Source: Adenophora triphylla var. japonica
Lineage: Eukaryota; Streptophyta; Magnoliopsida; Asterales; Campanulaceae
Length of the DNA stretch: 64,000 nucleotides
Reading direction: 5' to 3'
Assembly: GCA_022495995.1 (NCBI GenBank)
Contig: JAFEMH010001362.1
Span: forward strand, 422,349-486,348
This document shows positions 23,850 to 53,096 of the stretch, in pieces. The translations under genes were made by a program, and so were the position numbers. Under the pieces are notes generated by a model, which was not told the DNA's origin, did no database searches, and saw nothing but the letters and a program-made list of their open reading frames with translations. Numbering within the stretch: the first letter of the stretch is position 1; each line of letters opens with the position of its first letter.

Positions 23850-23851
23850 TA

Positions 23852-25037: not shown

Positions 25038-25073
25038 TATAAAACATATGAGGAATGTAATCCATTAAAATTA

Positions 25074-25332
25074 CTCCCTCTATCCCCTAATTAGTGTTCA
25101 TTTAAAAAAAAAATTATCACATATAATGAATGTCTTTTTTATTTTTTTGAAAATAACTTTGTCCCTAAATATACTTTTACCAAATTTTTGTACTAGTCTA
25201 TTTATACACGCAAAACTTAACGTTTAAAAGTAGATAATAAGATTATTTATGGATATTTTCCATTTAGTTGTATGAAAAATAGAAATTTTCAAAATGTCCT
25301 CTATAATAAAATTTAGATATTCATTGCCAAAA
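25074..25332. mobile_element. MITE-like sequence (left part)
   Basis: TA at 25072-25073 followed by CTCCCTCTATCCCC, a Stowaway-type terminus, and AT-rich sequence. A possible right end (TTCGTTTAGTAATAAAGGGA, about 25976-25995) lies beyond the 632-base element that follows, which may have inserted into it. Confidence 0.4.
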
Positions 25333-25964
25333 TCTTATAAAAAACGCGTTTTTTCTTAAGCTCAAGAAAAAATGTGTTTTGTTTCTCCGTTGGTGCCAGT
25401 GTGTCAGTGTGCCAGTACATGTGTAACAAAGTGTCAGTGTTAGTGTAAAAGAGTGTCAGTGCATGTGTAACAAAGTGCCAGTGAAACGCCCTAGGGTGCA
25501 ATCGCCCCTTCCTAGGGCGCGATCGCCCCATTTCCACCGAACGGCACCGCGCCATCGCCCGAAGGATGGGCGCGATCGCTCCCTTTGTCCAGAAACTCAG
25601 TGTCAGTGCATCTGTACCAAAGTGCCAGTGTTAGTGTAAAAGAGTGTCAGTGTGAAGATTGTCAGTGCATCCAAGGATGGGCGCGATCGCTCCCTTTGTC
25701 CAGAAACTCAGTGTCAGTGCATGTGTAACAAAAGGCCAGTGCATGTGTATTAAAGTGTCAGTGCTAGTGTAAAAGAGTGCCAGTGTGAAGAATGTCAGCA
25801 TGTATATTAAGTGTCAGTATAAAAAGTGCGGTGCATGTGTAACAAAGTGTCAATGTTAGTATAAAAAAGTGCCAGTGTGAAAAAGTGTCGGTGCATGTAT
25901 TATTATGTGTCATTGTAAAATAGTTTTTTTCTTAAGCTTAAAAAAAAACGCGTTTTTTATAAGA
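25333..25964. mobile_element. 632-bp terminal-inverted-repeat element with minisatellite core
   Basis: Terminal inverted repeats of about 40 bases (25333-25372 and 25924-25964) begin TCTTATAAAAAACGCG and contain TTCTTAAGCT. The core is a loose array of GTGTCAGTG/GTGCCAGTG blocks with CATGTGTAACAAAGTG and TTAGTGTAAAAGAGTG. It also holds a GC-rich island with GGGCGCGATCGCTCCC (two copies about 110 bases apart, 25567 and 25678) and related GCGATCGC motifs. There is no ORF and no clear target duplication. I do not recognise the family. Confidence 0.6.
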
Positions 25965-26020
25965 CCAACTCATATTCGTTTAGTAATAAAGGGAATAATT
26001 ATTTGCATTGAATTATAATA

Positions 26021-26283
26021 CTCCCTCCGTCCCACCTCACTTAAGAAAACTTTCCATTTTGGGCGTCCCACTAATTTTAAGAATTCCCAAAATGGAAACC
26101 TTAAATCACTATTCTCTTCACTCATTCTCTATCCTAAATTATTTTAATACTCACAACACCATTATAATTTACTATTTCCTTCACTCATTCTCTCTCCTAT
26201 TTTTATTTACACTCACAATATTTACCTTTTTCTTAATTCCCGTACCATTTCAAAAATTCCTAAGTGAGGTGGGACGGAGGGAG
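26021..26283. mobile_element. Stowaway MITE, 263 bp
   Basis: Perfect terminal inverted repeats CTCCCTCCGTCCCACCTCAC and complement, flanked by TA duplications (26019-26020, 26284-26285). The interior has internal TTCACTCATTCTCT duplicates and no ORF. It is the classic layout of a Tc1/mariner-derived MITE. Confidence 0.85.
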
Positions 26284-26542
26284 TATTTTTTAATCATTGT
26301 GGTCAAAATAAGTGAGATAAGTAAAAATGGAAAATAGGTCCAATATACTCCCATCCGAGAGAGGGTACATTAATTAATTGCTAAGGCCACGTTTGTATTT
26401 TTGTTTTACCTCTTATTTATCTTTTATTCAGATCCAGTTTCTTAAACTTTCAGACATTAAAAAATCAGATTCTTTGTTTTTTTTTTCTGGTTTAGATCTG
26501 AGTGTGTCTTAATGTTCTTATTTTTCGGACCCAAAAATAATA

Positions 26543-26752
26543 CTCCCTCCTTCCAAAATGTTTGTCCCATTTGATTTTTTTATTGAACTTTTACCACAAA
26601 TATATGACAATTTAATTATGTTCATGAAATTCTAAAAATTCCTATTGATTCACCATTAATAATATTATCAACAATAACTTTTAGAATTTCATGAACATGA
26701 GTAATCTCTCATAAATACGTGGTCAAAGTTCAACAAAAAAGTCAAATAGGAC
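26543..26752. mobile_element. MITE cut by insertion of element C
   Basis: TA, then CTCCCTCCTTCCAAAATG and TTTGTCCCATTTGA at the left. The right arm GTTCAAC...GTCAAATAGGAC stops exactly at the LTR C start (26753), before the expected complement of the left terminus. The missing 25 bases should follow the 3' LTR of C, but are not found in the window. Confidence 0.6.
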
Positions 26753-27509
26753 TGAACGATATAAACCGGATACGAACATGGGCTTGTTCGAGCTGGGCCT
26801 AATTGGATTGGGCCATGAATATTATCTAAATAGCCAAGTATCAGGGCCGAGTAAGGTCTTCCACGTATGCCGAGGAACGTTTACTTCGGCCTTATGACAC
26901 CACGCTTGGGCCGTCATGTCGCAAGTGATGAGGGGAGAAAAGTTCTTACCTCGGCATTTCATCACTATGACGAGGAAACAAAATCATTTACCCCGGCATA
27001 TATACTTGTCGGCCAATCACCAAATGACGAGGAAACAGAATCATTCACCTCGGCCTATTTGCCAAGGCCGAGGTAAAACATTTAAGTTCCTCGGCGTTCC
27101 GGTTAGCAGATTATACAGTCCTTATACAACAAGAATTGTACATTCATGATCCAATCAAGATTGTAACCAACCACACCACTTCAAGTCAAACAAGGACTCC
27201 TTAACAGATATAATTCTCATAGGATTATATCTTATCTCTTTACAAGTTTACTTCAACATGGATTCTATCAATCCATCCCTATAAATACAAGCCCCATGGC
27301 TCATAATTAGGTACATTACTTTTTACCTTGGGAAAACTCTGTCCATTTGTTTTCTCATATACAAACCGTGAACTTACTCTCACGCCGGAGGGCCTTTAGC
27401 CGGATCCGCCCCGGCTTAGTTTACGTGTTTTCTCTTATTTTCAGGCCTTGCAATCACCGGAGCAATCATCGCTTGGATTTGGGCTGTTTTGACGATTTTG
27501 GCATCATCA
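26753..27509 (+). repeat. 5' LTR of element C
   Basis: Starts TGAACGATATAAACC at 26753 and ends GCATCATCA at 27509, two bases before the PBS. It has a TATA box at 27280-27288 (CTATAAATA) and internal short repeats of the type ACGAGGAAACAGAATCATTC (26970-27065). The homology to the right-hand copy stops at the first base. Confidence 0.8.
27280..27288 (+). promoter_or_regulatory. TATA box of LTR C
   Basis: CTATAAATA, preceded by ATCCATCC and followed by CAAGCCCC, about 230 bases before the LTR end, the same spacing as in LTR B. Confidence 0.5.
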
Positions 27510-27511
27510 AT

Positions 27512-27529
27512 TGGTTCCATTGCCGGGAA
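27512..27529 (+). promoter_or_regulatory. Primer-binding site of element C (tRNA-Glu type)
   Basis: TGGTTCCATTGCCGGGAA, identical to the site in B and one mismatch from the complement of plant tRNA-Glu. It directly follows the LTR. Confidence 0.8.
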
Positions 27530-27871
27530 ATCGATTCAAACACCCTTTGTTTGGCCTGAAAAACGCTCGCTAAAAGCCAATTTTCTTGCCGGAATTATTC
27601 TCACATTGAACGGAATTTCTGGAAACCGCTTGGGCTCTATTCTTGAAACCGCCGGAATCTGCAAATTTCAACCTGAATTTACCCAGATTCCGTGGGAGGT
27701 GTTTTTGACGGGAAATTCCGCCCCAGTTGGCTTGAATTCTTTTGTGTTGAAAAAATCACAATTAGTTTTTTGTTGTGGTCAAAATTTGCCCTAATTTTGG
27801 CCATAAATTTGGTTCTATTGAAATTGTGATTTTTGGAGAATTCACACTTGGTAATTTGCTGTTGACTCACA
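27530..27871 (+). other. Leader of element C
   Basis: About 340 bases between PBS and gag ATG. An open frame crosses it (27489-27794) but starts inside the LTR and shows no protein features, so I treat it as untranslated. Confidence 0.5.
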
Positions 27872-29529
27872 ATGGAAGGACAGTTTACGAGTGTTACGGC
27901 TGAGGATCCCACCCAGGTGAATGGGGCGAACACTGGAGCCGAGGAGCTGCCTCCTCCTCCTCCTCTACCTCAGCCGGATGCCCCTCCTCCCCTCTCCATG
28001 ACCCTTCGTTCCAAGGGTCAGGTGAATGTCGAGGGAGAAGGTGCTGAGCTTCCTCGACCTACTCGTGCTCGCGGAAAGCAAGTGGCAAGGAAGAAAACAA
28101 AGAATGCCGACGCCGGTCAAGCAGGAGGAAGTCAACCCATTGACCGACGCTCTTTGTTACATAGGCAAATGGAGACATTACAAAGAATGTATGAAACACG
28201 AGGGCTCTCTTGCAATTGGACCCAGAGCATTCCATGGCTGAATTTATTAGGCCATCTCGTGGGCAACCCCTCGAAAAGGGACAGGATGAGCGGCGAGCTC
28301 CTCTCCTCAAAACCGGAGAACTACGAGGCAAGCTCCCAGAGAACCTACTTGTCCTCGGCATGACGGCAAGAAGAAGGACCGGAGTGGTTGACCGAGAAGC
28401 CACTTAACTCCCGGGGACGAGGAAGTAAATTCCGGGGACCTAAGAACGAGACTCGGCTGAGCAGGACGCCTTTGTCCCACGCTCGTCTCGTCGCTAGCCC
28501 CCTCGGCGTCCCACATCACCGCGAGCTCGTCGGCCAGGATTCTCCTCATCCTCGGCATATAGAGTTTGCTAGACCAAGGACCGGAACCGTACGGGATGAT
28601 ACTTGGTGGCCAAGACACAGGCGAAGCGTGATAAGGCCCCTTCCAAGCGGGACGACCAGGCGTGACGCGGAGCACGGTAGGGTGAATGATCGCCCCAAGG
28701 ACAAATCCGTCGAAGCTCCCAGCGAAGCACCCGCTCAAGCGGTGACAATGGAGTGGAAACCAAGCAATGGGAATTTGTTGAAGCAAGAGCTGGATGACAT
28801 GGAGAGGGGAAAGAAGTTCAATGACGATGATTATGGTAGGGCAACACGTCCATTCTCCTTGAGAATAACTGACTCCACCTAATCCCCACCTCAAACTCCA
28901 CTAATTTCGAAAAATACAATGGCACTGCGATGCAAAAGACCACGTGCGAGTTTTGAACAAACTATGAATCTCCTCACCACTAGCGATGACTGCTCATGTA
29001 AAGCTTTCGCGAGCACCTTCTCAGGAACGGCTTTGACTGGTTGTGAGCTTAAAAGAGGTAGCATCGATTCTTTGGAGAGGCATGAGGAGAATGTTCTTGG
29101 ACCACTTTGCTACACATTTGGTAAAGAGGAAGATAAGGTTGGCCGACTTGGCCAACATTGAGCGAGGAAAGGGAGAGACCACCCTCGGCTATTATAATCG
29201 ATTCGAAAAATGGCGGACCCGGGTTGAAGAGAGCCTCGGCGATAGGGAAGTCATTGTTTGTTTCAACTACGGCCTAAAATCTGGTCCCACTTGTTTATGA
29301 ACTCTCGGCCCGGGAACCTCAAACAAAGTCCGAACTATACAAGGTAGCTTATGCCATTTCCATGGGCGAGGACAAAACAAAGAAAAGGGGAGGCGACAAG
29401 ACGAAACGGAGGCGACGAGGCACTCGCCGAATGATAATGGAAACGGCGAGGGTTCCCGAAAGGGAAAAATAAAACAAGGAGCACGGAGAAGCTTGAATTC
29501 ACTCCTCTTACTAAACCCATCTCTACGAA
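27872..29529 (+). pseudogene. Gag of element C, N-terminal and capsid part
   Basis: The ATG at 27872 opens a Pro-rich N-terminus (ELPPPPPLPQPDAPP), then a basic stretch and MRKKTK-like Lys/Arg residues, up to a frameshift near 28210. Further fragments show the gag domain: FEQTMNLLTTSDD, CKAFASTFSGTALT (28940-29040) and, in the next frame, GYYNRFEKWRTRVEESLGDR (near 29190). At least four frame changes and a stop are present. The inverted copy C' has its ATG at 52738. It is a structural particle protein. Confidence 0.75.
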
Positions 29530-29532
29530 ATC

Positions 29533-30231
29533 ATGCAGCTGGTCAACCTTCCTCCACCTCATCCAATGACCAACAAGCCAAAATTCCCTCGTAACATGAA
29601 CAAATACTGTGATTTTCACAAAGACAACGGGCACACCACTGATGGCTGTTGGGCCCTCAAGAAAATAATCCAAAAATGGGTCGACGAGGGAAAGTTAGAT
29701 CGTTATGTCATGAAAAAAGACAATAAACGGAAGCAGAAGGAAGAGGAAAGTGAAGATGACGACAAAAGCGAGGATGAAGACCGCAGGCCCCCTAGGGCCG
29801 AGTTGCATGTGATACGGGAAGAGGTAACTTCTACCAGAAAACTAAGGGACCAGATCCACGAGCTGAGCAAAGTATACCATGTTCCTGCTTGGATCCATAA
29901 AGCAGAAGAGGTCATTAGTTTCTCTCCCAATGAGTTGGCTGGAAGCCGAGCAGCTCGTGAACAACCCTTGGTGATAAAGGGCAGATTAGACAATGTTGAA
30001 TCCGAAAGACTCCTCGTTGATACGGGGGCCTCCCGTGACATCCTATATTATTCAGCCTTCCAACAGATGGGCTTGAAAGACACCATGTTGGAACCTTATC
30101 ATGGAAGGCTAGAAGGATTCACCAATCACAAGGTGGGAGCCAAGGGAATTGTGGAGTTGGAACTTGAAGTCGGTGATAATCCCTTCTTAGCCAAAGCCAC
30201 AGTCAATTTCGTAGTCATGGATTTGACTAGC
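29533..30231 (+). CDS. Gag zinc knuckle and protease of element C, truncated
   Basis: Open for 233 codons up to the insertion point. It starts with the Pro-rich end of the gag domain, then the knuckle-like YCDFHKDNGHTTDGC (residues 35-49), a Lys/Glu/Asp-rich charged stretch (about 66-95), and the protease from about residue 140: ERLLVDTGASRDILYYSAF (catalytic Asp about residue 163), PYHGRLEGFTNHKVGAKG and NFVVMDLTS. The usual AILGRP-like end is missing because the LTR of A begins there. The last 15 codons of the reading frame belong to that LTR. Confidence 0.85.
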
Positions 30232-31965
30232 TGTAAGTGCTCCAATTTGAGCTTGTTAGAATTTTCGTTAGAAAATTAACGAAAGTTATAACATTCCTAA
30301 CAATTCCTAACATTCCTAACATTTCTAACAAAGTGAGGGCAAAATGGGCATTGTTATTTAAGGATAAACCAAGAAAAAGAATCAAAAAAGTGAAAGAAAT
30401 GGTCAAAAACCAAAAATAGAAATGGCTGGAACATAATCTGGCTGTTTAATTTAAAATTTAAAAAAGATTATTTCTTGTGTCCAAAGCCTGAAGCAGCATT
30501 TAATGAACAGTGCACGCGACCGATCCCATCCGCGTGGATAGGTTTGTAATTTTCAGAGGGCTATAAATTGAGCCCTCCAGTCACAAAAATAGAGAGGACC
30601 AAGAGCACAATTCACAGCATTTGGCGAAAATACTCGAGAAAACAGTGAGAATTCTCTAAGAATTGTCACCTTTTTCTCTTGAATCTTCCCAACTTTCACT
30701 CACTAAAATCAAACCCAAACACTCTTAAATTCAAGCCAAAGCCCCAAAATACAAAGAAGATAGGTATAACCTCCCTCTTCTTACCCTAAATCTCTCATCC
30801 ATGCATGCTTTTTTAAACTACAAAATGTAGTTCATTCATCTTCTTGTCTTAAGATCCAAGAAGATCACCATGGAAGTTCATCTCCATGGATGATCTTCTA
30901 CAAGGATCTACATTATTTTCAAAGTGTTCTTACTTTCTTGCAAAGAAAACACATTTTCAAAACCCTAAAAACCATTTTCAAGCACCAAATCTCATTTTCA
31001 AAGGATAAAATTCCCCTTCCCAAGCAAATGAAGTGCTTAGTCCTAATGTACCCCAAGGATGGTTTGGTATAGTTGATTCACCACTAAAATGTCAAGTGAT
31101 CACTAACCAAAACCTAGGGAAATGGGGACAAGCATGGATGCAAAAATCCCCTTTAAAATCATATTTTCTCTCTTGAGAAGTTGCTGTCCAGTAGCAATTT
31201 TCCAAGACCCCAGTCCATTGTCTTAATTTTTGGACACAGATAAACTTGGAATTTGGTGTTGACTACAAAACACTTTTTGTAGCAAACATCCAGAGATTTT
31301 ACTTTATTTTTTGGGTGAGTAAAACTCCTCTTTTCAAATTTTCTTTTAGAGGCCAGTTCATCAGCTTCTGGAAATCCAGATCTCATATCTGAGATTTCCA
31401 GAAGGTTTTGACCCCTCAAATCTTCTCCAAAATGGAAAATTCCATCGCACAAATCTTATTTAAGGTGTCTGGAATAACTTTCATTCTCTGAGTTTATCCA
31501 GATTATGAATTTTTTAAGACCCTTGAATCCATTTCAAAATCAAAGGTCCACTGCCTTTTTCATTCTGGCAGAAGTGACTCTCAAATTCAAAAGGTCTTTT
31601 GAGTACCAAATCTCAACCCAAAAATCTTCCAAAAAATCATGGGATCAGTTTAAAGTCTTAAAAAGACATCCCAATTTTTACTTTTCTGAGTTCCAACTTA
31701 TTTTGGCCAAAACACACACACACACACACACAAACGATTTTCAGCTTGGAAGACTCGTTTTACGAGGCATTCCGGGTGCACACTAACGTCCTTCCCGGCG
31801 TGTAACATGACCTCCAAACCCAAATCTCTAATCTCGGGCATTTTTCAAAGTTTTGGCCCTTAAAACAAAAATGGCGTGACGACTCCGTTCTTTTTCCGAG
31901 TTTTATTTGGTTTTTCAAAGAAACGCAAAAATCGATTTTTTCCCGCGAAATGACACATCATCACA
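30232..31965 (+). repeat. 5' LTR of element A (Ogre-like family)
   Basis: Starts TGTAAGTGCTCC and ends CATCATCACA, 1734 bases. It contains the TATA hairpin (30556-30577), a (CA)n tract at 31711-31730 and the GGCGTGACGACTCCG block near its end. It shares a specific short form (ACTCTTAAATTCAAGCC near 30723) with the LTR at 48519-50256 only, which pairs those two by descent. Confidence 0.85.
30528..30577 (+). promoter_or_regulatory. Core promoter of LTR A
   Basis: ATCCGCGTGGATAGG (30528-30542, an imperfect palindrome), then after 13 bases GAGGGCTATAAATTGAGCCC, where the TATA box lies in a potential hairpin loop (stem GAGGGCT/AGCCCTC, 30556-30577). Confidence 0.6.
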
Positions 31966-31966
31966 G

Positions 31967-31984
31967 TGGCGACTCCGCTGGGGA
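31967..31984 (+). promoter_or_regulatory. Primer-binding site of element A (tRNA-Arg)
   Basis: TGGCGACTCCGCTGGGGA one base after the LTR end. It is complementary to the 3' end of a plant tRNA-Arg, as known for Ogre elements. Confidence 0.85.
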
Positions 31985-32562
31985 TAAATAAGCTTTTTCT
32001 AAAAAAAAAATGATATTTGGTATATTGGTGGAAACCATTAAATTTCCCGTTATCGCCTCCTAGCACGAGTCGGGGATAAATTGTGGTCTAACAATCCCAC
32101 GTACCGGTATCATCGTTTTCAAAAAAGAAAAGCTTTTGAGGGTCAAGCTTCCGTCCCGGCTTTAAAAATCATTTGTTGTGTGTGTTGATTTTTGTACATT
32201 TTTCGTGTTGTTTTGGCCGCCTCGGGAAAAGTCAAAATGTTGACTGTCGGAATCATGCCCCTAACTGTCGGAATTTTTGTGCTTATGTGCTTATGTGTTC
32301 ATTAACTTTCAAAAAAAAAATTCAAAAAAAAAAGATTTTCAAAAAAAAAGAAAAATTTTCAAAAAAAAATCATGCATCATATTTTTAAGACACATAAAAA
32401 AAAAAATCTATTTTACTCAGAAAAAGAATATAGACTGCTTGCACACTACGCGCACGCGACCTTACACTGTACACTACGTCCCTAACCCGGGGAAATCCTT
32501 GCCGCGGCCCGTTTGGTCTTATTACGCCTCTCGGTGCAAGCACAGGATTACCCAAACATCCC
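31985..32562 (+). other. Leader of element A, interrupted by copy 2
   Basis: The family leader, with no ORF of note. It ends at CCCAAACATCCC, where the minus-strand LTR of copy 2 begins. In copy 1 the leader is continuous at this point (about 10400), so this is an insertion site. The candidate target duplication is ATCCC (32558-32562). Confidence 0.7.
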
Positions 32563-34348
32563 TGTGATGATGTCGCCATTTCGCGGGGAAAAATTCGATT
32601 TTTTGCGTTTATTTGAAAAAACTAAATAAAACCCGGAAAAAAGAACGGAGTCGCCACGCCATTTTTATTTTAAGGGCCAAAACTTTGAAAAATGCCCGAG
32701 ATCAGAAATTTGGGTTCGGAGGTCATGTTACATGCCGGGAAGGACGTTAGTGTGCACCCGGAATGCCTCGTAAAACAAGTCTTCCAAGCTGAAAATCATT
32801 TGTGTGTGTGTGTGTGTGTGTGTTGGCCAAAATAATTTGAAACTCAGAAAAGTAAAAATTGGAATATCTTTTTAAGACTTTAAACTGATCCCATGATTTT
32901 TTGGAAGATTTTTGGATTGAGATTTGGTACTCAAAAGACCTTTTGAAGTTGAGAGTCACTTCTGCCAGAATGAAAAAGGCAGTGAACCTTTGATTTCGAA
33001 ATGGATTCAAGTGTCTTAAAACTTCATAATCTGGATAAACTCAGAGAATGAAAGTTGTTCCATACACCTTATATAAGGTTTGTGCGAAGGAATTTTCCAT
33101 TTTGGAGAAGATTTGAGGGGTCAAAACCTTCTGGAAATCTCAGATATGCAATCTGGATTTCCAGAAGCTGATGAACTAGCCTCTAAAAGAAAATTTGAAA
33201 AGAGGAGTTTTACTCACCCAAAAAATAAAGTAAAAATACTTATGGAAATCTCTGGATGTTGGCTACAAAAAGTGTTTTGTAGTCAAAACCAAATTCCAAG
33301 TTTATCTGTGTCTAAAAATTAAGACAATGGACTGGGATCTTGGAAAATTGCTACTGGACAGCAACTTCTCAAGAAAGAAAATATGATTTTAAAGGGGGTT
33401 TTGCATCCATGCTTGTCCCCATTTCCCTAGGTTTTGGTTAGTGATCACTTGACATTTTAGTGGTGAGTCAACTATACCAAACCATCCTTGGGGTACATTA
33501 GGACTAAGCACTTCATTTGCTTGGGAAGGGGATTTTTATCCTTTGAAAATGAGATTTGATGCTTGAAAATGTTTTTAGGGTTTTGAAAATGAGTTTTCTT
33601 TGCAAGAAAGTAATAGAACTTGAAAATAATGTTGATCCTTGTAGAAGATCATCCATGGAGATGAACTTCCATGGTGATCTTCTTGGATCTAAGACAAGAA
33701 GATGAATGAACTACATTTTGTAGTTTGAAAATGCATGCATGGATGAGAGATTTAGGGTAAGAAGAGGGAGGTTATACTTATCTTCTTTGTATTTTGGGGC
33801 TTTGGCTTGAATGTATGAGTGTTTTAGGCTTTGAATGTAAGAGTGTTTGGGTTTGATTTGAGTGAGTGAAAGTTGGGAAGATTCAAGAGAAAAAGGTGAC
33901 AATTCTTATAGAATTCTCCTTTGTTTTCTCAGTATATTCGTCAAAATCTTGTGAATTGTGTTCTTCTTCCTCTTTATTTTGTGTATTTGGAGGGCTCAAT
34001 TTATAGCCCTCTGAATTTTACAAAAAAGATGTCCGCGCGGATAGGACTGCGGCGTGCGGCTTGTTCATTAAATCTTGCTCCGAGGCTTTGGACAAGAGGA
34101 ATAATCTTTTTTAAAATTCAAATTAACCAGCCAGATTATGTTTCCAGCCATTTCTTTTTTTGGTTTTTCTTATTTCTTTTGCTTTTTTGATTCCTTTCTT
34201 GGTTTATCTTTTTTTGGCAATCCCTAATCCACCCTTGGTTGGTTAGAAATGTTAGAAATGTTAGAAATTGTTAGAAATTTTAGGAATGTTATAACTTTCG
34301 TTAATTTTCTAACGAAAATACTAACAAGCTCAAATTGGAGCACTTACA
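32563..34348 (-). repeat. 3' LTR of copy 2
   Basis: Begins TGTAAGTGCTCC at 34348 and ends CATCATCACA at 32563. It contains a (GT)n tract at 32802-32822, the TATA hairpin near 34000 and the CCGCGCGG palindrome at 34030-34044. Just before it, on the minus strand, GAGGGGCTAC (34349-34358) is a candidate polypurine tract. It shares a duplicated TTCAAAGCC...TTCAAGCC form with the fragment at 46621-47956. Confidence 0.85.
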
Positions 34349-34720
34349 GTAGCCCCTCGGCGACGGCGCTTTCGAAGGAAGCGGGGTCGTCGATAAGAGT
34401 AAGGCTCCATATTTGGCGGGATGATCGAGTGATCGGGTGGCTGAACCTATTTAATAGGCTACCTACGTATCCTTAAGAGGAATCAAGCCAGTCGTAATTC
34501 GGGTCTTCGACCCTGGAGATGATGGCGTCTTAGGTGCCTCGAACCTGATGAGCGAGTTCTGCAGTCGGTTGCTGGAGAGAAAATCTGCTGGGGATAAGAG
34601 ATGACCATTTTCGGTTTGTTGGCTATCCGCTCTGCTGGGGATAGGAATGACCATTTTCGGTCTGATGGCTATCCGCCCTGCTGGGGATGATTGTGATTTA
34701 TCGTTTTCCTAGTGTTTGTG

Positions 34721-34991
34721 TGTGATAGCGTCTTAGGTGCCTCGAACCTTGGAGATGGCGTTTTAGGTGCCTCGAACCTTGGAGATGGCATTTTAGGTGC
34801 CTCGGACCTTGATGATGGCGTTTTAGGTGCCTCGAACCTTGATGATGGCGTTTTAGGTGCCTCGAACCTTGGAGATGGCGTTTTAGGTGCCTCGAACCTT
34901 GGAGATGGCGTTTTAGGTGCCTCGGACCTTGGAGATGGCGTGTTAGGTGCCTCGGACCTTGGAGATGGCGTTTTAGGTGCCTCGAACCTTG
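34721..34991. repeat. 30-bp minisatellite, nine units
   Basis: Head-to-tail GGCGTTTTAGGTGCCTCGAA + CCTTGGAGAT units, with GGA/GAT variants. Because the unit is a multiple of three, the plus strand is open through it (a repeated decapeptide), but nothing suggests a real protein. An isolated extra unit lies at 34516-34545. Confidence 0.9.
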
Positions 34992-35209
34992 ATTATGAAA
35001 TGGCCTTTCGGTGGACTTTGTCTGATGCCGAAGGAGAGGGTGACCGTTTTGGTCGGGGGGCTGGACCTAATGATAGGCTACCTACGTATCCCTAGCGGGG
35101 AATCAAGCCCTTTCGTAGTTTGAGATCTTCTCGAGATTTCGTTGGCTTTTGCGATTTCGTTAACTTTGCTGGGGATTTTGTTAGCCTTTGCTGGGGAAAA
35201 TCAGACGTA

Positions 35210-35690
35210 TTCGTCTGGGAAATCGGTCTTACGTTTGACTGCCGGGGAATGATTTTGATGAAAGATACGGGATCTCGTTATCTTTCTCAGGGAGGTCGGC
35301 CTTGCGTTTGACTGCCGAAGGGTAATTTTGATGAAAGATACGGGATTCCGTTATCTTTCTCGGGGAAATCGGTCTTACGTTTGACTGTCGGGGAACGATT
35401 TTGATGAAAGATACGAGATCTCGTTATCTTTCTCAGGGAGATCGGTCTTACGTTTGACTGTCGGGGAATGATTTTGATGAAAGATACGAGATCTCGTTAT
35501 CTTTCTCAGGGAGATCGGTCTTACGTTTGACTGCCGTCGAAAGATTTTGATGAAAGATACGGAATTCTGTTATCTTTCTCGGGAAGATCGGACTTACGTT
35601 TGACTGCCGTTGGATAATTTTGATGAAAGATACGGGATCTCGTTATCTTTCTCGGGGAGATCGGTCTTACGTTTGACTGCCGTTTGATGA
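35210..35690. repeat. 74-bp minisatellite, about 6.5 units
   Basis: Units contain TCTTACGTTTGACTGCCG, TTTTGATGAAAGATACGGGA and TCTCGTTATCTTTCTC. The period measured between TCTTACG starts (35227, 35300, 35373) is 73-74 bases. Confidence 0.85.
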
Positions 35691-35806
35691 TTTTCTTGAC
35701 AAGGGGCTGACTTTGGTTAACTTTGGTTAACTCTGTCAAGTTAGGGAGGCTGAAGCTGAGAGTCCTAGATTTTAAAGGGCAAAAGGGTCATTTTGACCAC
35801 GACAAT

Positions 35807-35850
35807 CCTATCCGCGGATAGGAGCGTGTTCGAGAGGGTTTTAAATGAGG
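35807..35850 (+). promoter_or_regulatory. Putative promoter of antisense ORF 1 (copy 2)
   Basis: A perfect 16-base palindrome CCTATCCGCGGATAGG (35807-35822) is followed by GAGGGTTTTAAATGAGG (35834-35850), 130 bases before the ATG at 35979. The LTR promoter has the same order and spacing: ATCCGCGNGGATAGG, then GAGGGCTATAAATTGAG. I infer that this is a plus-strand promoter related to the LTR one. Confidence 0.55.
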
Positions 35851-35978
35851 GTCGCCCCTTCTTCTTCCCCGATCTGTTTTTTACGAAAATTACGAGAGAG
35901 AGAGAGAAAATCGCCCCAAGCCGCCATTGTTGTCCAAAAAGCTTCAAAAATTTTCCGATTTCTTCGATTTTTTGAGCA

Positions 35979-38919
35979 ATGGAACACGGGGAAGGTGCTT
36001 TTCAAGGCCAAGGACGTGGCCCGGTAGCGGAGAGACGATTGGAGCTCGTCCGGATGAGGAGGCACTATACTCTTTCGCAATCGATTGCGGAGGAGCCCTA
36101 CCCCGATGCTTGGCAACATTGGGCTTCTGATCCGAGTCTCCGAACGGTATACTTTGAATCTTTTCATTCCCTTTGTTGATTTCTTGCTTGAGATTGAATT
36201 TTGGGTGATTTTTGAATTTTTTTTTTTTTTGAAAACTCGAATGATTGATGTTCTTGGCTTTGAATCTTGATTTTGATGCTTTGCATGTTATGAGTATATG
36301 AGTAACCCAAAATGTGCATTTTGCTTGGGAAAAAGAATTGGCATTTTCGCCATTTTTTTTTTAGTATCCGAAAATTATGGATGAAAATTGTGATTTTTTT
36401 TTTGAACATTGATTTTTGATGATATACATGTTGCAATGAATTTGTTGCTGTTCCAAAATGTGCATTTTGCTTGAGAAAAGAATTGGCATTTTGCCAACAT
36501 GAGATGATGATATGAGTGTATGATTTTTGATTGATTTTTTTTTTTGAAAAGTGGGACGGATTTTTCCTCCCGTTGATTGAATGCATGTTATTTTATGAAA
36601 AATGGGACGGAGTTTTTGCTTCCGTAGGATGTAGGATTTTTTTTTTTTGAGATGATGAATGATATGCATGCATGCATAGGAACTTTTTTTTTTTTTGAAA
36701 ATGGGACGGAGTTTTTACTCCCGTTGACTCTTTGTACGAAAGATTTTTTTTTTCATGAATGTTGATTGGGATTTCTTGGCTGTCTTTTTTTTTTGTGCGA
36801 GAAAAATGGGGCTATGCTCATTGTATCTTTGTTATCTTTGTCGAATTTTCTTTGAAATTTCATGATGCGTATGTATGCTTTTTTTTTCGTGCAAATGCGG
36901 ATGCAAATTTTTTTTGACATTTTCCTTTTTTTTTTGTTTTATTGCGGGGTGGAAACAACTACGTTACGGGCGGTGAACAAGATGAAGACTCGAGGATCGG
37001 TGGAGTACGTAGTTGACTTGTGGGACCGGCTTCCGAATGCGGGCCGAGGAGCTTTGCCGAGTCGAGGCAGTTGTTGTTGAGGCCGGGCTTTGGGAGTTCA
37101 TTGAGTGTTTGAGGGGATTGGTCAAGTTCCACTAAGAGCAAGGGCACGATGTTTGCTTTGGCGCGGCTTGGTGGGATGCGACCCACACGTTCACTTCTTC
37201 GGGGCGAGGCTATGGTTACGCCTTCCGACTATCTTTGCGATCAGGTTTGTCCTTTAATGGGCGCGGCATTGAGTGGCGGGACGGCTATAGCGACGCGGAC
37301 TGCGAGGCTCTTCTAGGATTTTCCCCTATTCCCAAAGGGATGGGGATGGAGTATGCGGTGGTCCTACGGGAAGATTGTGGAGACCATTGTGAGCTACGAG
37401 GGGGAGGAGAGGATAGGCGCAGAAGCGTGATTGCTAGGGCCTTCTTATGGTTTGCTTTTCGAGCACCCTTTTTGGACATGCTTTGAGGGGCGAGTCTTTG
37501 CCTTCTTGAGGTCCTTGGAGGACATGGAGATGGTGGAGACGTCTCTGGGGAGAAGCGAGGCGGCGAGCTTACTTTGCTCTTGATGGTACAGTAGGAAGAG
37601 GCTGTGAGCTCCTTATCTTGCTTTGAGTTTGCCACGGAGGTATAAGCTCTCTTTTGCTTTCCCTTTTTTTCTTGAGCACACACTTTTCTTTTGCCTTTGG
37701 ATTGATTGGATTTTTACCTTTCGCGGTATGGGCGTTGGAGTTTTCCACGTCACGATGTGGCGGCGGCCGGCGGAGTCGTCAGGGCGTATCCGTCCATGCG
37801 CTCTTGGTCCAAGCATGTCAGGAGAAGATAAGCTCCGAGGGCGTACGACTCTCGGATACGCGGATTGCCTTCCTTTGACGGAGGCGAGACGGATGAGAGG
37901 ATGATATTTTATCCACCCAGGATCGCTTCGAGGTGGCGCGGTTGAAGGGCGAGATTTGGGTTATGCGGCGGAGGATTACGAGAGATCGACTGCGATGCCT
38001 ATTATGCGGGAGAGAGGAGTGACACGCCGGCATGGCGTGAACTCGCCTTTGAGGACACCGGTGGAGCCTCCCGCCGATATGATGCATCCAGTGACGGATC
38101 TGCGACTGGGATGATTACGCGGGCGGCCGGCACTTCTCGGCATTTGTGGCGGTCGAGCCGTACCCCGTGTTTGTCTTGAGGAGGTGAGGATGCCCCGAGG
38201 TTACGGATAGAGAGGGCTTGGGATCCGCCGGTACCCTCGGACGGATTTTCATATATCCGGGATGGGAGTCCGATTGAGGTGCGAATCCCTCATCATCACG
38301 GCTTCCGCGAGCTTTCCGGCCTCGTCTAGGGTATGAAGGTATGAGCTTCTCCTTCCCTCCTTTCTTCTTTTTTTTTGCTTTTGTCTTTTCTTTTCTTTCC
38401 TGTCATCATTTTTCGCTTCAAGCATTTCTGACGCATTTGCTTTTGTGCGGTTTTCGGAGGTGGTTGTCGAGAAGGCGCGAAGCAAGTGATCGGAGCTAAG
38501 AGATTCATCGGGAGGATGGTCGCTTGCGGGGCTCCTCGAGCTAGAGCGAGGCGACCACGGCGGCGCACATCGGGCGGGAGGCTTCCCTATTCGTTCGAGA
38601 CTTCTTCGAGACTCCTCTGTCTCCTCTCATTGATCCCAGCGGTGCCCCGGATCACGTTATTCTCGAGGATCCCACACGGGTAGGGACACGTGCGGCGTGG
38701 TAGGTCGTCTTCGTACGTCCGGGGAGTCCGACGCCTTCACGCCCGGATATGATTTTTCGCGAGATCTCGCTTGCCCTATCGGGCGTGCCGGTTGGTCTGA
38801 CGAGCCTCTTTTACGGGAGACGAGGACGATTACAGGCCGAGATTTTCGGGGCTCTGAGGAGCGGGCCCAGTCGCAAGAGGGCCGGGGACGGGGCGTCGGG
38901 CGCTAGGGATTACGATTGA
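35979..38919 (+). pseudogene. Antisense additional ORF 1, plant-mobile-domain-like (copy 2)
   Basis: The ATG at 35979 opens MEHGEGAFQGQGRGPVAERR and runs 56 codons to DPSLRT, then GTATAC. A T-rich stretch (36147-36947) looks like an intron. The next part (36960-37500) contains EYVVDLWDRLPNAG, a block like the W-x-x-x-T-HTF region of the plant mobile (aminotransferase-like) domain, GIEWRDGYSDADCEALLGFS and ARAFLWFAFRAPF. Further intron-like stretches lie at 37640-37725 and 38331-38450. A basic C-terminal part ends at TGA 38917-38919. At least four frame breaks are present. The function in the element is unknown. The mobile-domain call rests on pattern only. Confidence 0.5.
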
Positions 38920-39426
38920 ATTACCCCACGATTTTAGATTTTGAGATTTATGAATGGGATTGAGATTTGTACGGCTTATGCACATTTTTTTCTTTTGTTA
39001 CCTTTTCTTTTTTTTTTTTTTTTGGGATGTAATAATTTTAGGATTTTATTTTATGAATGCAATGCGGTATGAATGCAATGTTGCATGAGCCTTGGTTCTT
39101 TTTCTTTTAGCGAAGGTGTTAGTGTTTGAGTATATGGGTGGTTTGGGGAGGTTTTTGCACGGGTTCGAGCAGCGGGACGGAATATTCCTCTTTTGGTGTA
39201 GCGGCTTGGAGTACATTGCAGATTTTCGATGGAAAGCAATCATATCCGCGCGGAGAGGAGGGATCACATCGACATTGTCCTTTAATTTTGCTTGAATCTG
39301 GTCTCACTTTATTTCAAATTCAAATATCCTCTTGACCTCCGGTCCAAACGGCCATTTTCGGGAGAAAGAGAGAAAATCCATGGAAAACCTTAGAAAAGCT
39401 CCATCAAAATTGTCCCAGAATCCCAA
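38920..39426. promoter_or_regulatory. Spacer between antisense ORFs, copy 2
   Basis: The counterpart of 836-1350. It holds a T-rich part and ATATCCGCGCGGAGA (39242-39256) upstream of a weak TATA-like GCTTGAATCTGG. There is no coding sequence. Confidence 0.4.
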
Positions 39427-41131
39427 ATGTCATTCTTCAACAAGTTCGAAGGATTGGTCGGGAGATTATGCATGAGAGGAGGTCCTTCTTTGAAGAAAGG
39501 TATAAGGTGAAGTGCTTATGGTCTCTCAAGGAATTGATTAGGACTACGATCTTTTGAGGGCTTCTTCCTCATTTTGGGATACTAGAAGGCATGTCTTTTG
39601 CCTTTCTTACAACGAGATGGTCCCGACCATCGAAGAATTTCGGGCCTTGCTTGGTGGTCGGAGGTGGAGAGATAGCGGTTCCTTTGCCGGAGGGGCTTCT
39701 ATTGTTGACCAATGATTGTGCGTCTCCTCCTTCATCTTTCCCGGAGGAAGGCGCAGGTATGATCCGTGGTCCCGATCATTTTGATATTTCCAGTCTACGA
39801 CTAGATTTAGGGAGCTTGAGGCTTGCTCGACGATGCCTATTGGGATGCCTTTGCACTTTGCATGTTCGGGACCCATTTGTTTATGGTCTATTCTTTTGGG
39901 ATCTTGCGCATCGGTCTACTTGCTGGATAGTAGTCGTTCGATTGTCGCTTGGGCGAGAGACGTCGTTCCTTTCGATCTGGGGAGACTTTCCATGCTCACT
40001 CGATGAGCATTGCGCTGCACGGGAGAACGACCTATATGCGCAGGGGCGGCCGTTCTCTTGACCACATGGGCGATGGAGCGTTTGGGGATTCTTCGGGAAA
40101 CTCTGACATGATCGAAGCCTTGGACATTTGCCGGGGAGGGGGTTCTTCTGTGGATTTGTTGATGATCGGGGGCTCGTGGGAGCGTTGGATGGCTGATGTC
40201 GCCCCGGGCAAGCGAGAAGATATCGAGATGGTCGAGTGCCTTGTTGGCGGAGTGGAGACTTGCGCGAGTGCTTGGGGACGGGTTGCTCGTATGGTACCAT
40301 GCTTAGGGAGCTTTCTCGGTCCGGACCTTCTATATTTCCGTCCTCGATGGATTACAAGACGATTCGGCTTGGAGCGAAGCGGAGGTTCCTTTGGAGATGA
40401 ACTTCTGATGAGGATATAGCCGCGAGGTGGTCGGCTCTGTTCTATGAGATGATAAGCACCTTCGGTGTTTCCATTTCTTTCAGAGAGCATGGGTATGACG
40501 TCTCTCCTCCTCGGGTTATCCTCGAGCGTCAGGAGCCAACTTGTTGAAGAATGACCACTTGAATTACTTGGGACAATTTTGATACGAGAGGCATTTAGGG
40601 AGAGACTTCCGGATTTTGGCTATTTTATGAAAATGGCGGCGTGAGGCCATTGTGGGTGCGGAGGACTGACAGCGGTTTACGAGAGGAGTGAGGGCGGATC
40701 GAGGGCCAACCCTAAGGACAATGACAGATGCACAGACTCCTCCGCGCGGATATGATCGGCCTTTCCATCAGAAAAATCTGCACTTACAGTCCAAGCTGCT
40801 GCACCAAGAGGAAGGCTCTATGCCGTGCGGCTAGGCTACGAGGAGATGAGAGGTGACACGCTCCCCAAAGGAGGGCATATACTGGGCCTAACACCGCTTG
40901 CCAAAAAGAAAAAAGAACCAAGGCTCATGCAACATTGCATTCATAGATCCATTGCGATTCCTATACCGAAGCTTAGTAGGAGAAAGACCGACATTATTTC
41001 TAGTTCGAGAAGAAAGAAGATTCGAAGAAAGGGAAAAAGAGGAGAGGCGATCTGTGAGTCAGCGCTTGGAGTGACTGCGATCCCGTTTCAGAGTATCTCA
41101 CTTTCTTGTCATCGGCGAGAATCACATTAGT
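39427..41131 (+). pseudogene. Antisense additional ORF 2, DUF7745-like (copy 2)
   Basis: The ATG at 39427 opens MSFFNKFEGLVGRLC. Blocks matching copy 1 follow in shifting frames: ASSSFWDTRRHVFCLSYNEM, a Gly/Trp stretch, ARDVV (near 39960), GDGAFGDSSGN (40070-40110), a 140-codon stretch with GGSWERWMADVAPGKREDIE (40165-40225) and GRVARMVPCLGSFLGPDLLY (40275-40335), then a basic end and TAG at about 41131. Two patches (40733-40800 and 40868-40960) are inverted copies of 39045-39262 and are foreign to the gene. It resembles retrotransposon-borne DUF7745 proteins; the role is unknown. Confidence 0.55.
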
Positions 41132-46620: not shown

Positions 46621-47956
46621 AGATATTGTCACCTTTTTCTCTTGAATCTTCCCAATCTTCACTCACTCAAATCAAACCCAAACACTCTTACATTCAAAGC
46701 CTAAAACACTCATACATTCAAGCCAAAGCCCCAAAATACAAAGAAGATAGGTATAACCTCCCTCTTCTTACCCTAAATCTCTCATCCATGCATGCATTTT
46801 CAAACTACAAAATGTAGTTCATTCATCTTCTTGTCTTAGATCCAAGAAGATCACCATGGAAGTTCATCTCCATGGATGATCTTCTACAAGGATCAACATT
46901 ATTTTCAAGTTCTCTTACTTTCTTGCAAAGAAAACTCATTTTCAAAACCCTAAAAACATTTTCAAGCATCAAATCTCATTTTCAAAGGATAAAAATCCCA
47001 TTCCCAAGCAAATGAAGTGCTTAGTCCTAATGTACCCCAAGGATGGTTTGGTATAGTTGATTCACCACTAAAATGTCAAGTGATCACTAACCAAAACCTA
47101 GGGAAATGGGGACAAGCATGGATGCAAAACCCCCTTTAAAATCATATTTTCTTTCTTGAGAAGTTGCTGTCCAGTAGCAATTTTCCAAGATCCCAGTCCA
47201 TTGTCTTAATTTTTGGACACAGATAAACTTGGAATTTGGTGTTGACTACAAAACACTTTTTGTAGCCAACATCCAGAGATTTCCATAATATTTTTACTTT
47301 ATTTTTGGGTGAGTAAAACTCCTCTTTTCAAATTTTCTTTTAGAGGCTAGTTCATCAGCTTCTGGAAATCCAGATTGCATATCTGAGATTTCCAGAAGGT
47401 TTTGACCCCTCAAATCTTCTCCAAAATGGAAAATTCCTTCGCACAAATCTTATTTAAGGTGTATGGAACAACTTTCATTCTCTGAGTTTATCCAGATTAT
47501 GAAGTTTTAAGACCCTTGAATCCATTTCAAAATCAAAGGTCCACTGCCTTTTTCATTCTGGCAGAAGTGACTCTCAACTTCAAAAGGTCTTTTGAGTACC
47601 AAATCTCAATCCAAAAATCTTCCAAAAATCATGGGATCAGTTTAAAGTCTTAAAAGATATTCCCAATTTTTACTTTTCTGAGTTTCAAATTATTTTGGCC
47701 AACACACACACACACACACACAAATGATTTTCAGCTTGGAAGACTTCGTTTTACGAGGCATTCCGGGTGCACACTAACGTCCTTCCCGGCATGTAACATG
47801 ACCTCCGAACCCAAATTTCTGATCTCGGGCATTTTCAAAGTTTTGGCCCTTAAAATAAAAATGGCGTGGCGACTCCGTTCTTTTTCCGGGTTTTATTTGG
47901 TTTTCAAATAAACGCAAAAAATCGAATTTTTCCCCGCGAAATGGCGACATCATCAC
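46621..47956 (+). repeat. Truncated inverted LTR of the Ogre-like family
   Basis: Begins inside the LTR at ATTGTCACCTTTTTCTC (matching 33905 reversed), runs to CATCATCAC at 47956, with (CA)n at 47702-47722. It is the mirror image of the 3' LTR of copy 2, including the TTCAAAGCC/TTCAAGCC duplication, but lacks its first 440 bases and promoter. Confidence 0.8.
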
Positions 47957-48501
47957 GGGATGTTTGGGTATCACTGTGCTTGCAGAGGCGTAATAAGACC
48001 AAACGGGCGCGGCAAGGATTTCCCGGGTTAGGGACGTAGTGTACGGTGTACGGTCGCGTGCGCGTAGTGTGCAAACGATCTATATTCTTTTACGAGTAAA
48101 ATAGATTTTTTTAATTTTTATGTGTCTTAAAAATATGATGCATGATTTTTTTGAAAATTTTCTTTTGAAAATCTTTTTTGAATTTTTTTGAAAGTTAATG
48201 AACACATAAGCACGTAAGCACAAAAATTCCGACGTTAGGGGCATGATTTCGGCGTCAAAATTTTGACTTTTCGGCGGCCAAAACAACACGAAAAATGTAC
48301 AAAAATCAACACACACAACAAATGATTTTTAAAGCGGGACGGAAGCTTGACCCTCAGCTTTTCTTTTTTTGAAAACGGTGATACCGGTACGTGGGATTGT
48401 TAGACCACAATTTATCCCGACTCGTGTTAGGAGGCGATAGCGGGAAATTTAATGGTTTCCACCAATATACCAAATATCATTTTTTTAGAAAAAGCTTATT
48501 T
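47957..48501 (-). other. Leader of A' (inverted copy of 31985-32562)
   Basis: Minus-strand leader adjoining the inverted LTR at GGGATGTTTGGGTA (47957). The same junction, mirrored, is at 32562/32563. No gene. Confidence 0.7.
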
Positions 48502-48517
48502 ATCCCAGTAGTCGCCC
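48502..48517 (-). promoter_or_regulatory. Degenerate PBS of A'
   Basis: The minus strand reads GGGCGACTACTGGGA, the same damaged form as in copy 1, whereas A (31967) is intact. The loss is around a CTCCGCTG string. Confidence 0.55.
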
Positions 48518-48518
48518 T

Positions 48519-50256
48519 TGTGATGATGTGTCGCGATTTCGCGGGAAAAATTCGATTTTGCGTTTCTTTGAAAAAACCAAATAAAACTCGGAAAAAGAAC
48601 GGAGTCGCCACGCCATTTTTGTTTTAAGGGCCAAAACTTTGAAAAATGCCCGAGATTAGAGATTTGGGTTTGGAGGTCATGTTACACGCCGGGAAGGACG
48701 TTAGTGTGCACCCGGAATGCCTCGTAAAGCGAGTCTTCCAAAGCTGAAAATCGTTTGTGTGTGTGTGTGTGTGTGTTTTGGCCAAAATAAGTTGGAACTC
48801 AGAAAAGTAAAAATTGGGATGTCTTTTTAAGACTTTAAACTGATCCCATGATTTTTGGAAGATTTTGGTTGAGATTTGGTACTCAAAGACCTTTTGAATT
48901 TGAGAGTCACTTCTGCCAGAATGAAAAAGGCAGTGGACCTTTGATTTTGAAATGGATTCAAGGGTCTTAAAAAATTCATAATCTGGATAAACTCAGAGAA
49001 TGAAAGTTATTCCAGACACCTTAAATAAGATTTGTGCGATGGAATTTTCCATTTTGGAGAAGATTTGAGGGGTCAAAACCTTCTGGAAATCTCAGATATG
49101 AGATCTGGATTTCCAGAAGCTGATGAACTGGCCTCTAAAAGAAAATTTGAAAAGAGGAGTTTTACTCACCCAAAAAATAAAGTAAAAATATGTATGGATA
49201 GCTCTGGATGTTGGCTACAAAAAGTGTTTTGTAGTCAACACCAAATTCAAGTTTATCTGTGTCCAAAAATTAAGACAATGGACTGGGATCTTGGAAAATT
49301 GCTACTGGACAGCAACTTCTCAAGAAAGAAAATATGATTTTAAGGGGGTTTTGCATCCATGCTTGTCCCCATTTCCCTAGGTTTTGGTTAGTGATCACTT
49401 GACATTTTAGTGGTGAATCAACTATACCAAACCATCCTTAAGTACATTAGGACTAAGCACTTCATTTGCTTGGGAAGGGGAATTTTATCCTTTGAAAATG
49501 AGATTTGGTGCTTGAAAATGGTTTTTAGGGTTTTGAAAATGTGTTTTCTTTGCAAGAAAGTAAGAACACTTTGAAAATAATGTAGATCCTTGTAGAAGAT
49601 CATCCATGGAGATGAACTTCCATGGTGATCTTCTTGGATCTTAAGACAAGAAGATGAATGAACTACATTTTGTAGTTTAAAAATGCATGCATGGATGAGA
49701 GATTTAGGGTAAGAAGAGGGAGGTTATACCTATCTTCTTTGTATTTTGGGGCTTTGGCTTGAATTTAAGAGTGTTTGGGTTTGATTTGAGTGAGTGAAAG
49801 TTGGGAAGATTCAAGAGAAAAAGGTGACAATTCTTAGAGAATTCTCACTGTTTTCTCGAGTATTTTCGCCAAATCTTGTAATTGTGCTCTTGGTCCTCTC
49901 TATTTTTGTATTTGGAGGGCTCAATTTATAGCCCTCGAAAATTACAAACCTATCCGCGCGGATGGGATCGGTCGCGTGCCTTGTTCATTAAATCTTGCTT
50001 CGGGCTTTGGACACAAGAAATAATCTTTTTAAATTTTAAATTAAACGACGGATTATGTTCCGGCCATTTCTATTTTTGGTTTTTGACCATTTCTTTCACT
50101 TTTTTGATTCTTTTTCCTTGGTTTATCCTTAAATAACAATGCCCATTTTGCCCTCACTTTGTTAGAAATGTTAGGAATGTTAGGAATTGTTAGGAATGTT
50201 ATAACTTTCGTTAATTTTCTAACGAAAATTCTAACAAGCTCAAATTGGAGCACTTC
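48519..50256 (-). repeat. LTR of A' (inverted copy of LTR A)
   Basis: Runs from about 50256 down to 48519, ends CATCATCACA, with (GT)n at 48757-48776, the TATA box near 49925 and the palindrome TATCCGCGCGGATGGG (49951-49966). It is close to LTR A, including the short ACTCTTAAATTCAAGCC form. The first bases (TGTAAG) are damaged to CAGAAG. Confidence 0.8.
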
Positions 50257-50990
50257 TGACTAGTCGAATCCATGACTACGAAATTGATGTGGCATGGCCA
50301 CAGAAGTGACGATCACCCAGACTTCAAGTTCCAAACCACGCTTCCGCTTGGCTCCAACCTTGTGATTGGTGAATCCTTCTAGCCTTCCATGATAAGGCTC
50401 TAAGACATGGTGTCTTTCAAGCCCATCCGTTGGAAAAGGCCAGATAACATAGGATGTCACGGGAGGCCCCAGGTGCCAACAAAGTGAGTCGCTCGGATTC
50501 AACATTGTCAATCCGGCCCCCTTTATCACCAAGGGCTGTTCACGAGCCGCTCGGCTTCCACCAACTCCGCTTAGGAGAGAAACTAACGACCTCTTCCTCG
50601 CTTTTGCATGGGTCCAAGCAGAAATACGGTATACTTTTCTCGGCTCGCGGATCCGGTCCCTTAGTTTTACCGTGCATGCTACCTCTCTCCCGTATCACAT
50701 GTAACTCGGCCACTGTGGAGGCCCGGCGGTCTTCATCCTCGCTTTTGTCGTCATCTTCACTTTCCTCTTCCCTTTTCCGCTTCCGCTTGTCGTCTTTTTT
50801 CATGACATAACGATCTAACTTTCCCTCGCCGACCCATTTTCGGGATTATTCTTCTTGGTGGCCCAACACCTATCAGCTGCGTGTGTCGTAAGGTTCCTTG
50901 GTGGGAAGTCACAAGATTTGCTCATGTTACGAGGGAATTTTGGCTTTGTCACTGCATCGGGACGAGGTGGAGGAAGGTTTACTAGCCGGT
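50257..50990 (-). pseudogene. Gag knuckle and protease of C'
   Basis: Mirror of 29533-30231. Readable blocks include KKDDKRKRKREEESEDDDK, AELHVIRE, then the protease text PYHGRLEGFTNHKVGAK (near 50370) and, at 50260-50300, the stretch up to the LTR. Compared with C it has frameshifts and many CAG-to-CGG changes (AACAGATGG to AACGGATGG near 50430). The LTR of A' interrupts it at the same base region as in C. Confidence 0.75.
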
Positions 50991-52738: not shown

Positions 52739-53079
52739 CAGGAAGTCAACAAAGAAATTATCAAGCGCAAATTTTCCTATAAAAATCACAATTTCCAATA
52801 GATCCAAACTCCGTCAAAATTAGGGCAATCTTTGACCACAAACAAATTCAAATTTCTGCGATTTTTCCAACACAAAAATTCTCGAGCCGTAAAATTCCGC
52901 TTCGCACAGCGAACAGTAGATTCCAAAGCCGAATTTTTGCAAAATCAGGCTGGTAATCAGGAATGTAACCCAGCAAACAATCCAGTAAATTTCGTTCAAT
53001 CGGCAGAAAAATTCCTAGGCAAGAAATTTGGCTTTGAGCGAGGCGTTTTCCGTGCCAAACAAAGGGTGTGTCAATCTAT
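52739..53079 (-). other. Leader of C'
   Basis: Matches 27530-27871 reversed, with many differences. No coding feature. Confidence 0.5.
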
Positions 53080-53094: not shown

Positions 53095-53096
53095 AT

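Follow-up and report, generated by a model that had tools for sequence, protein, structure and literature searches.

A 64-kb window at the end of a contig from Adenophora triphylla var. japonica (JAFEMH010001362.1, positions 422,349 to 486,348; assembly GCA_022495995.1) was analyzed, and genome-wide counts were made on the 2.48-Gb assembly. The window contains nested copies of one long terminal repeat (LTR) retrotransposon family, here called elements A to E, with LTRs of approximately 1.73–1.79 kb that have TG...CA ends. Two antisense open reading frames (ORFs), aORF1 and aORF2, were identified on the plus strand of element C, which itself is oriented on the minus strand. The putative LTR promoter and the putative promoters of the two antisense ORFs bear the same palindrome, with the family form CCTATCCGCGCGGATAGG and the core TCCGCGCGGA. 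In all three putative promoter types the palindrome lies approximately 17–25 bp before a TATA-like word.

The start codon of aORF1 lies at position 35979 on the plus strand, 157 bp after the palindrome CCTATCCGCGGATAGG (35807–35822, plus strand). The palindrome is followed by the TATA-like block GAGGGTTTTAAATGAGG (35834–35850, plus strand). A preliminary description of this DNA had proposed that aORF1 has its own promoter, built like the LTR promoter, and the sequence agrees with the palindrome, the block from 35834 and the ATG on which that proposal was based. The counterpart in the LTR, ATCCGCGTGGATAGG ... GAGGGCTATAAATTGAG, was also located where it had been placed, at 30528–30572. Two details need to be modified. 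The 16-base palindrome is present, but it falls 2 bp short of the family form. The GAGGG-TATA context is likewise present at this site, but GAGGG-TTTTAAAT is limited to a subfamily and other copies have TATTAAT. A homology search with the aORF1 promoter and exon of the window yielded 3322 candidates at first look. Scoring was applied to 40 of these, and 30 copies, one of them the window copy, were extracted. The core region has the longer CGCGC form in each of the 29 others. These are close copies, 24 of which have the perfect 18-bp CCTATCCGCGCGGATAGG. The window copy is therefore a 2-bp-shorter variant that stays palindromic. Just upstream of the palindrome, an inverted repeat, GGGTCATTTTGACC (35785–35798, plus strand), is recognizable in 26 aligned aORF1 copies, several of them with changes. 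It contains TTGACC, which we take to be W-box-like, and may be a second regulatory site.

In element C, the putative aORF2 promoter has the palindrome core ATCCGCGCGGA at 39244–39254 (plus strand) and a TATA-like TTTAAT at 39281–39286. In element E, the corresponding palindrome lies at 1164–1178 (plus strand), before the aORF2 ATG at 1303. Element E consists of the window from position 1 to approximately 7070 together with locus L033, which directly precedes the window and in which the aORF1 promoter and the LTR of this element are located. The TCCGCGCGGA sites at aORF2 of elements C (ATG at 39380) and E indicate that both antisense ORFs carry the LTR palindrome. The 12-mer ATCCGCGCGGAT is found in the LTR, the aORF1 promoter and the aORF2 promoter of element E. 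Part of the aORF2 promoter region is duplicated in inverted orientation, with 74% identity, at 40740–40945 (minus strand). This duplicate has a palindrome at 40741–40751 and was not found at the corresponding place in element E.

A palindrome followed by a TATA box is present in the putative LTR promoters of element A (30526–30572, plus strand; one CpG of the palindrome changed to TpG), element B (49920–49965, minus strand) and element D (12372–12418, minus strand). In the 3' LTR of element C (32563–34348, minus strand, read from 34348 to 32563), the palindrome lies at 34032–34042 and the TATA block at 34011–33999. In each of the four window LTR promoters with U3, the TATA box lies within a perfect inverted repeat, GAGGGCT-ATAAATTG-AGCCCTC (30556–30577 in element A).

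Within the window, TCCGCGCGGA occurs six times against 0.03 expected. With one mismatch allowed, seven sites were found, comprising four LTR promoters, two aORF2 promoters and the inverted aORF2-promoter copy. The four LTR promoter sites are the four copies of this LTR that retain U3. A two-block model was trained only on these four LTR promoters and scored on both strands outside the LTRs. The aORF1 site ranks first with 33.3 bits, compared with a maximum of 27.0 bits in 500 dinucleotide shuffles (Gumbel p ~1e-4), a significance that is optimistic because the gap ranges were chosen after the site was seen. When the LTR core was aligned locally to the aORF1 site, the result was not significant over the whole window, with 23, 77, 100 and 100 of 100 shuffles reaching the score for the four LTRs. 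The TATA block showed no enrichment in the window at up to two mismatches (13 sites, 15.5 expected), and its five exact sites are the four LTR promoters and the aORF1 site. The GAGGG-TATA block was rejected as the common part, given this lack of enrichment and the TATTAAT in aORF1 of element E. The idea that a 16-bp palindrome is remarkable by itself was also rejected, as six are present in the window against a mean of 1.4 in 30 shuffles.

The exact 16-mer CCTATCCGCGGATAGG occurs 29 times in the genome, whereas its reversed control does not occur. All 29 sites, the window site and 28 others, were placed. Among them, 25 belong to aORF1 promoters (142–169 bp before the start), three to aORF2 promoters (117–122 bp before the start) and one to an LTR promoter, and none lies outside these elements. 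The 12-mer ATCCGCGCGGAT has 12,110 genome sites, compared with 316 for its reversed control. Exact 12-mer matches were placed for 30 of the first 50 sites in assembly order, and all 30 lie in this family or related families. They comprise nine main-type LTR promoters, two LTR promoters of a related subfamily, six aORF1 sites, seven aORF2 sites and six mid-LTR sites. The mid-LTR sites of related families (L064, L080, L081, L082, L087 and L093, near 605–645) were labeled by window-LTR matches flanking both sides (L064, L080, L081 and L087) or by similarity to L080 (L082 and L093). Palindrome pairs 31–33 bp apart occur in seven of the retrieved loci, including the LTR promoters L084 and L085 and the aORF2 promoter L076; the mid-LTR pairs of L080, L081, L082 and L087 are 31–32 bp apart. 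The layout of element C, with a minus-strand LTR followed by plus-strand aORF1 and aORF2, recurs at several places, for example at C1:1696555, 1698875 and 1702479 (L071–L073). The promoter module that the preliminary description had suggested to be shared by the LTR and the antisense gene thus recurs, as a palindrome with a TATA-like layout, in many genomic copies, and a lack of conservation in other family members, named there as a sign against the idea, was not observed; the second antisense promoter, however, had been overlooked. Two IMG/VR pattern searches and one protein-guided scan retrieved no relatives outside this genome.

The distance to the TATA-like word was compared among the 12-mer sites. 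In main-type LTRs, TATAAA starts 21–22 bp after the 12-mer in nine of nine cases. For the six aORF1 sites, a scripted search gives TATTAA or TTTTAAA at 18–20 bp in four, and inspection by eye gives TTTTAAT at 19 bp and TATTTAAT at 17 bp in the remaining two. TTTAAT was recognized by eye 21–23 bp after the 12-mer in four of the seven aORF2 sites, and the remaining three have variants of it that differ by one letter. Comparison of the sequences around the three promoters of element E showed mostly dissimilar flanks (p>0.1 in five of six comparisons and 0.014 in one). In a related subfamily, a 69-column cassette containing two palindromes 33 bp apart is common to an LTR (L084:572–620) and an aORF2 promoter (L076:575–620). 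The two copies have opposite orientation relative to transcription and align with a score of 91, compared with a maximum of 37 in 200 shuffles.

The internal region of element C reaches approximately 46602. No pol-domain match to element C itself was found in the protein-domain scan, so this element was read and placed through its alignment with element E, which is 68–79% similar in aligned parts and has reverse transcriptase (RT) and integrase matches on the minus strand. The antisense ORFs of element C lie between pol and the 3' LTR, with the region corresponding by alignment to the pol of element E on one side and the minus-strand 3' LTR on the other, and element E has the same layout. A putative polypurine tract (PPT), recognized by its sequence, adjoins the 3' LTR at 34349–34362 (minus strand). 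The 3' LTR, the PPT-like tract and the pol-aligned region to the right agree with the earlier placement of aORF1 in an Ogre-like Tat element. Tandem repeat arrays with units of 46, 30 and 73 bp occupy 34584–35797, between the 3' LTR and the aORF1 promoter. The array nearest to the PPT (34584–34688) contains the palindrome half-sites TATCCGC (34624 and 34670) and GGGATAGG (34638), and also the word GCTGGGGATA, which is found in the primer-binding site (PBS) region too.

Element D, which has the same LTR family and lies on the minus strand, shows domains in the Ty3/gypsy order gag-pro-RT-RNase H-integrase. Pfam matches were obtained for Asp_protease_2 and RVT_1 at 16265–18043 (minus strand; the protease match is weak, 20.1 bits against a cutoff of 24.3), RVT_3/RNase_H at 14834–15598 (minus strand) and rve at 14203–14805 (minus strand). 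The Tat clade carries an additional RNase H domain of archaeal type (aRH); the RNase H matches of element D are those to RVT_3 and RNase_H. Ogre proper has gag-pro and RT-RNase H-integrase in separate ORFs, whereas the protease and RT of element D lie within a single, better preserved frame of 592 amino acids, and elements C and E are too degraded for this comparison. The family was therefore filed as Tat-clade and Ogre-like only. The sequence TGGCGACTCCGCTGGGGA follows the LTR of element A and represents the PBS, presumably of the tRNA-Arg type. The window as a whole is a near mirror image (16115–33903 and 46625–64000), in which 26.9–33.9 kb matches 53.7–46.6 kb in inverted orientation at 87%. 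A second inverted match links 16.1–22.5 kb with 64.0–57.7 kb (89%). The mirror halves have a common junction, where an LTR end abuts the leader of another copy.

The first exon of aORF1 comprises 56 codons (35979–36146, plus strand), with a predicted GT donor at 36147. Across 26 copies chosen by their palindrome, a rough ratio of nonsynonymous to synonymous substitution rates (dN/dS) of 0.24 was obtained for this exon, which is open throughout in 15 of the 26 copies as counted by hand. Further downstream, a degraded plant mobile domain part (36985–37486, plus strand) contains frameshifts and stops in the window and is open in other copies. An open aORF1 copy matches the Pfam plant mobile domain (PF10536) with an E value of 1.1e-22 and a score of 81.1 bits against a cutoff of 34.9, covering positions 11–172 of the 347 in the profile; this copy supplies the plant mobile domain extra ORF of an Ogre-like element. 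The window's own broken aORF1 pieces gave no Pfam match. From the dN/dS of exon 1 and the plant mobile domain match, aORF1 looks coding. The 5' part of aORF2 (39380–39712, plus strand) is degraded and DUF7745-like, with a weak Pfam match (E value 6.5e-4, 19.3 bits) under the cutoff of 26. Protein searches with the window aORF1 and with aORF2 of element E gave no match, and a PDB search with the plant mobile domain part gave one match with an E value of 0.51, taken as chance. No match to Transposase_28 (PF04195) was found in the antisense ORF stretches scanned, which gave the plant mobile domain and the weak DUF7745 match instead.

The sequence of the palindrome, its positions, its spacing and its confinement to the elements at every examined site are direct observations. 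On this basis, we propose that the palindrome in the three putative promoters of this Tat-clade, Ogre-like Ty3/gypsy family is probably the site of a dimeric factor that couples sense and antisense transcription. The putative LTR promoter would direct gag-pol, and the two internal promoters on the opposite strand would direct aORF1, with its plant mobile domain, and the DUF7745-like aORF2. A symmetric, presumably dimeric, factor would bind the palindrome and govern transcription jointly in the sense and the antisense direction, which would make a single regulon of the element's transcription units. The element may supply this factor itself, with the plant mobile domain protein as the foremost candidate, in which case the circuit would be self-regulating. 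In a more specific form, which we put forward only tentatively, the plant mobile domain protein (or the DUF7745-like protein) encoded by the antisense ORFs would bind the palindrome as a dimer and control gag-pol as well as its own synthesis, and would reach thousands of sites of the family in trans.

Several observations weigh against such coupled control. The support is drawn from sequence comparison, and both the promoters and the binding of a regulator are putative. The scripted box search finds none in two of the six aORF1 sites and only one in the seven aORF2 sites, at 33 bp; a TATA box in common can be recognized clearly in the LTR and in most aORF1 sites only. Among 29 close aORF1 copies, diversity is 0.021 in the palindrome compared with 0.027 in the flanks, and 51% of 18-bp windows are equally low. 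The palindrome is thus no better conserved than its flanks, and this test therefore shows no selection on the site. The 30 examined 12-mer sites were gathered by the exact 12-mer itself, and neighboring sites among them probably belong to the same element, so that they do not represent 30 independent elements. Six of the 30 lie mid-LTR, away from any known promoter.

The palindrome could also be a host transcription factor site acquired in each promoter of the family, with no element-encoded regulator involved. Retrotransposon promoters commonly rely on host factors, and the core contains a CGCG-box and GGATA/TATCC words, which we take to be recognized by CAMTA and MYB-related factors of plants. 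If host genes used the full site, however, the complete absence of sites outside elements (0 of 30 for the 12-mer and 0 of 29 for the 16-mer) would not be predicted. This objection is limited, as shorter half sites could serve host genes, and we consider the involvement of a host factor possible, though short of probable. Common descent without common control is a different matter. A piece of the LTR promoter may have recombined into the antisense region, or back, leaving the palindrome as a remnant. The cassette in L084 and L076 and the inverted duplicate at 40740–40945 indicate that such pieces move, and the palindrome lacks extra conservation in close copies. The promoter flanks of element E are nevertheless mostly unrelated, yet the 12-mer is identical, and three CpGs within presumably methylated repeats are expected to cause early decay of a neutral remnant, which makes such a history unlikely.

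A structural or epigenetic role in place of a transcriptional one, such as a CpG-dense methylation target, a cruciform or a nucleosome signal, would suit the three CpGs per 10 bp, the C-to-T change at a CpG in one LTR copy (30528–30542) and the mid-LTR position of six of the 30 sampled sites. Such a role appears quite improbable, given the fixed TATA distance in all nine main-type LTRs and the position of the sites ahead of the start codons of two different genes. The resemblance between the palindrome and the LTR promoter might, finally, be due to chance in this one copy, as the generic local alignments of the two window sites were not significant. The genome-wide counts and placement refute this, and we attach practically no weight to it. 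Coupling of sense and antisense transcription through a palindrome-binding factor thus remains our preferred explanation.

The present family resembles Ogre in having a plant mobile domain extra ORF, a Ty3/gypsy pol and a PBS that we take to be of the tRNA-Arg type. According to the part of the Ogre survey available, the plant mobile domain extra ORF occurs in 57% of surveyed elements, and gag-pro and RT-RNase H-integrase lie in two ORFs that are on average 274 bp apart (PMC6317226). This part covers coding regions and does not mention a common promoter motif. In Grande, a Tat-clade element of maize, gene23 is reported to be antisense, to lie between pol and the 3' LTR, to have its own upstream promoter and to encode a nuclear product (PMC7264820, PMC11963269). 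The antisense genes described here have the same location; unlike in Grande, there are two of them, one product has a plant mobile domain, and their putative promoters carry the LTR palindrome, a sharing that the available portions of the Grande accounts do not mention. For Retand, the accessible text describes tandem repeats together with antisense ORFs in the region from pol to the 3' LTR and proposes a regulatory role (PMC11963269). The family shares this arrangement, but the antisense ORFs of Retand are described there as having Transposase_28, a domain that none of the stretches scanned here matched.

VANDAL elements belong to the DNA transposons. The VANC proteins that they encode are reported, in the accessible part of the source, to bind noncoding sequence within copies of the element that encodes them, with an anti-silencing effect (PMC10398659). 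A comparable pattern, with a motif repeated in the noncoding parts of elements and rare elsewhere, was found here (30 of 30 12-mer sites and 29 of 29 16-mer sites), and at all sites examined the motif is confined to elements. The targets described for VANDAL are tandem repeats, whereas here an LTR element has one or two palindromes per promoter as putative binding sites. In Arabidopsis, the plant mobile domain proteins MAIN and MAIL1 have been linked, in the text available, to transposon silencing and to the expression of genes whose promoters contain the DOWN motif (PMC7156037). They have the same protein domain but are host genes, whereas the domain described here is borne by an element. A search of titles and abstract openings, in which subscription journals were thinly covered, retrieved no promoter motif that an antisense ORF has in common with an LTR. 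From Grande, antisense genes that have a promoter of their own are known, as are plant mobile domain extra ORFs from Ogre, and the palindrome common to the putative LTR and antisense promoters appears to be new.

In the accessible text of the respective accounts, the function of the antisense genes of Grande, RIRE2 and Retand is given as not known (PMC7264820), as is that of the plant mobile domain (PMC7156037). A palindrome present in all three putative promoters and at thousands of sites, with none of the examined sites outside such elements, offers a concrete bait for a regulator. It also allows a direct test of whether antisense genes control retrotransposition. If an antisense-encoded protein does bind the palindrome in the way tentatively put forward above, the element-borne plant mobile domain would gain a DNA target, and this plant retrotransposon would have a regulator comparable to VANC or to those of retroviruses.

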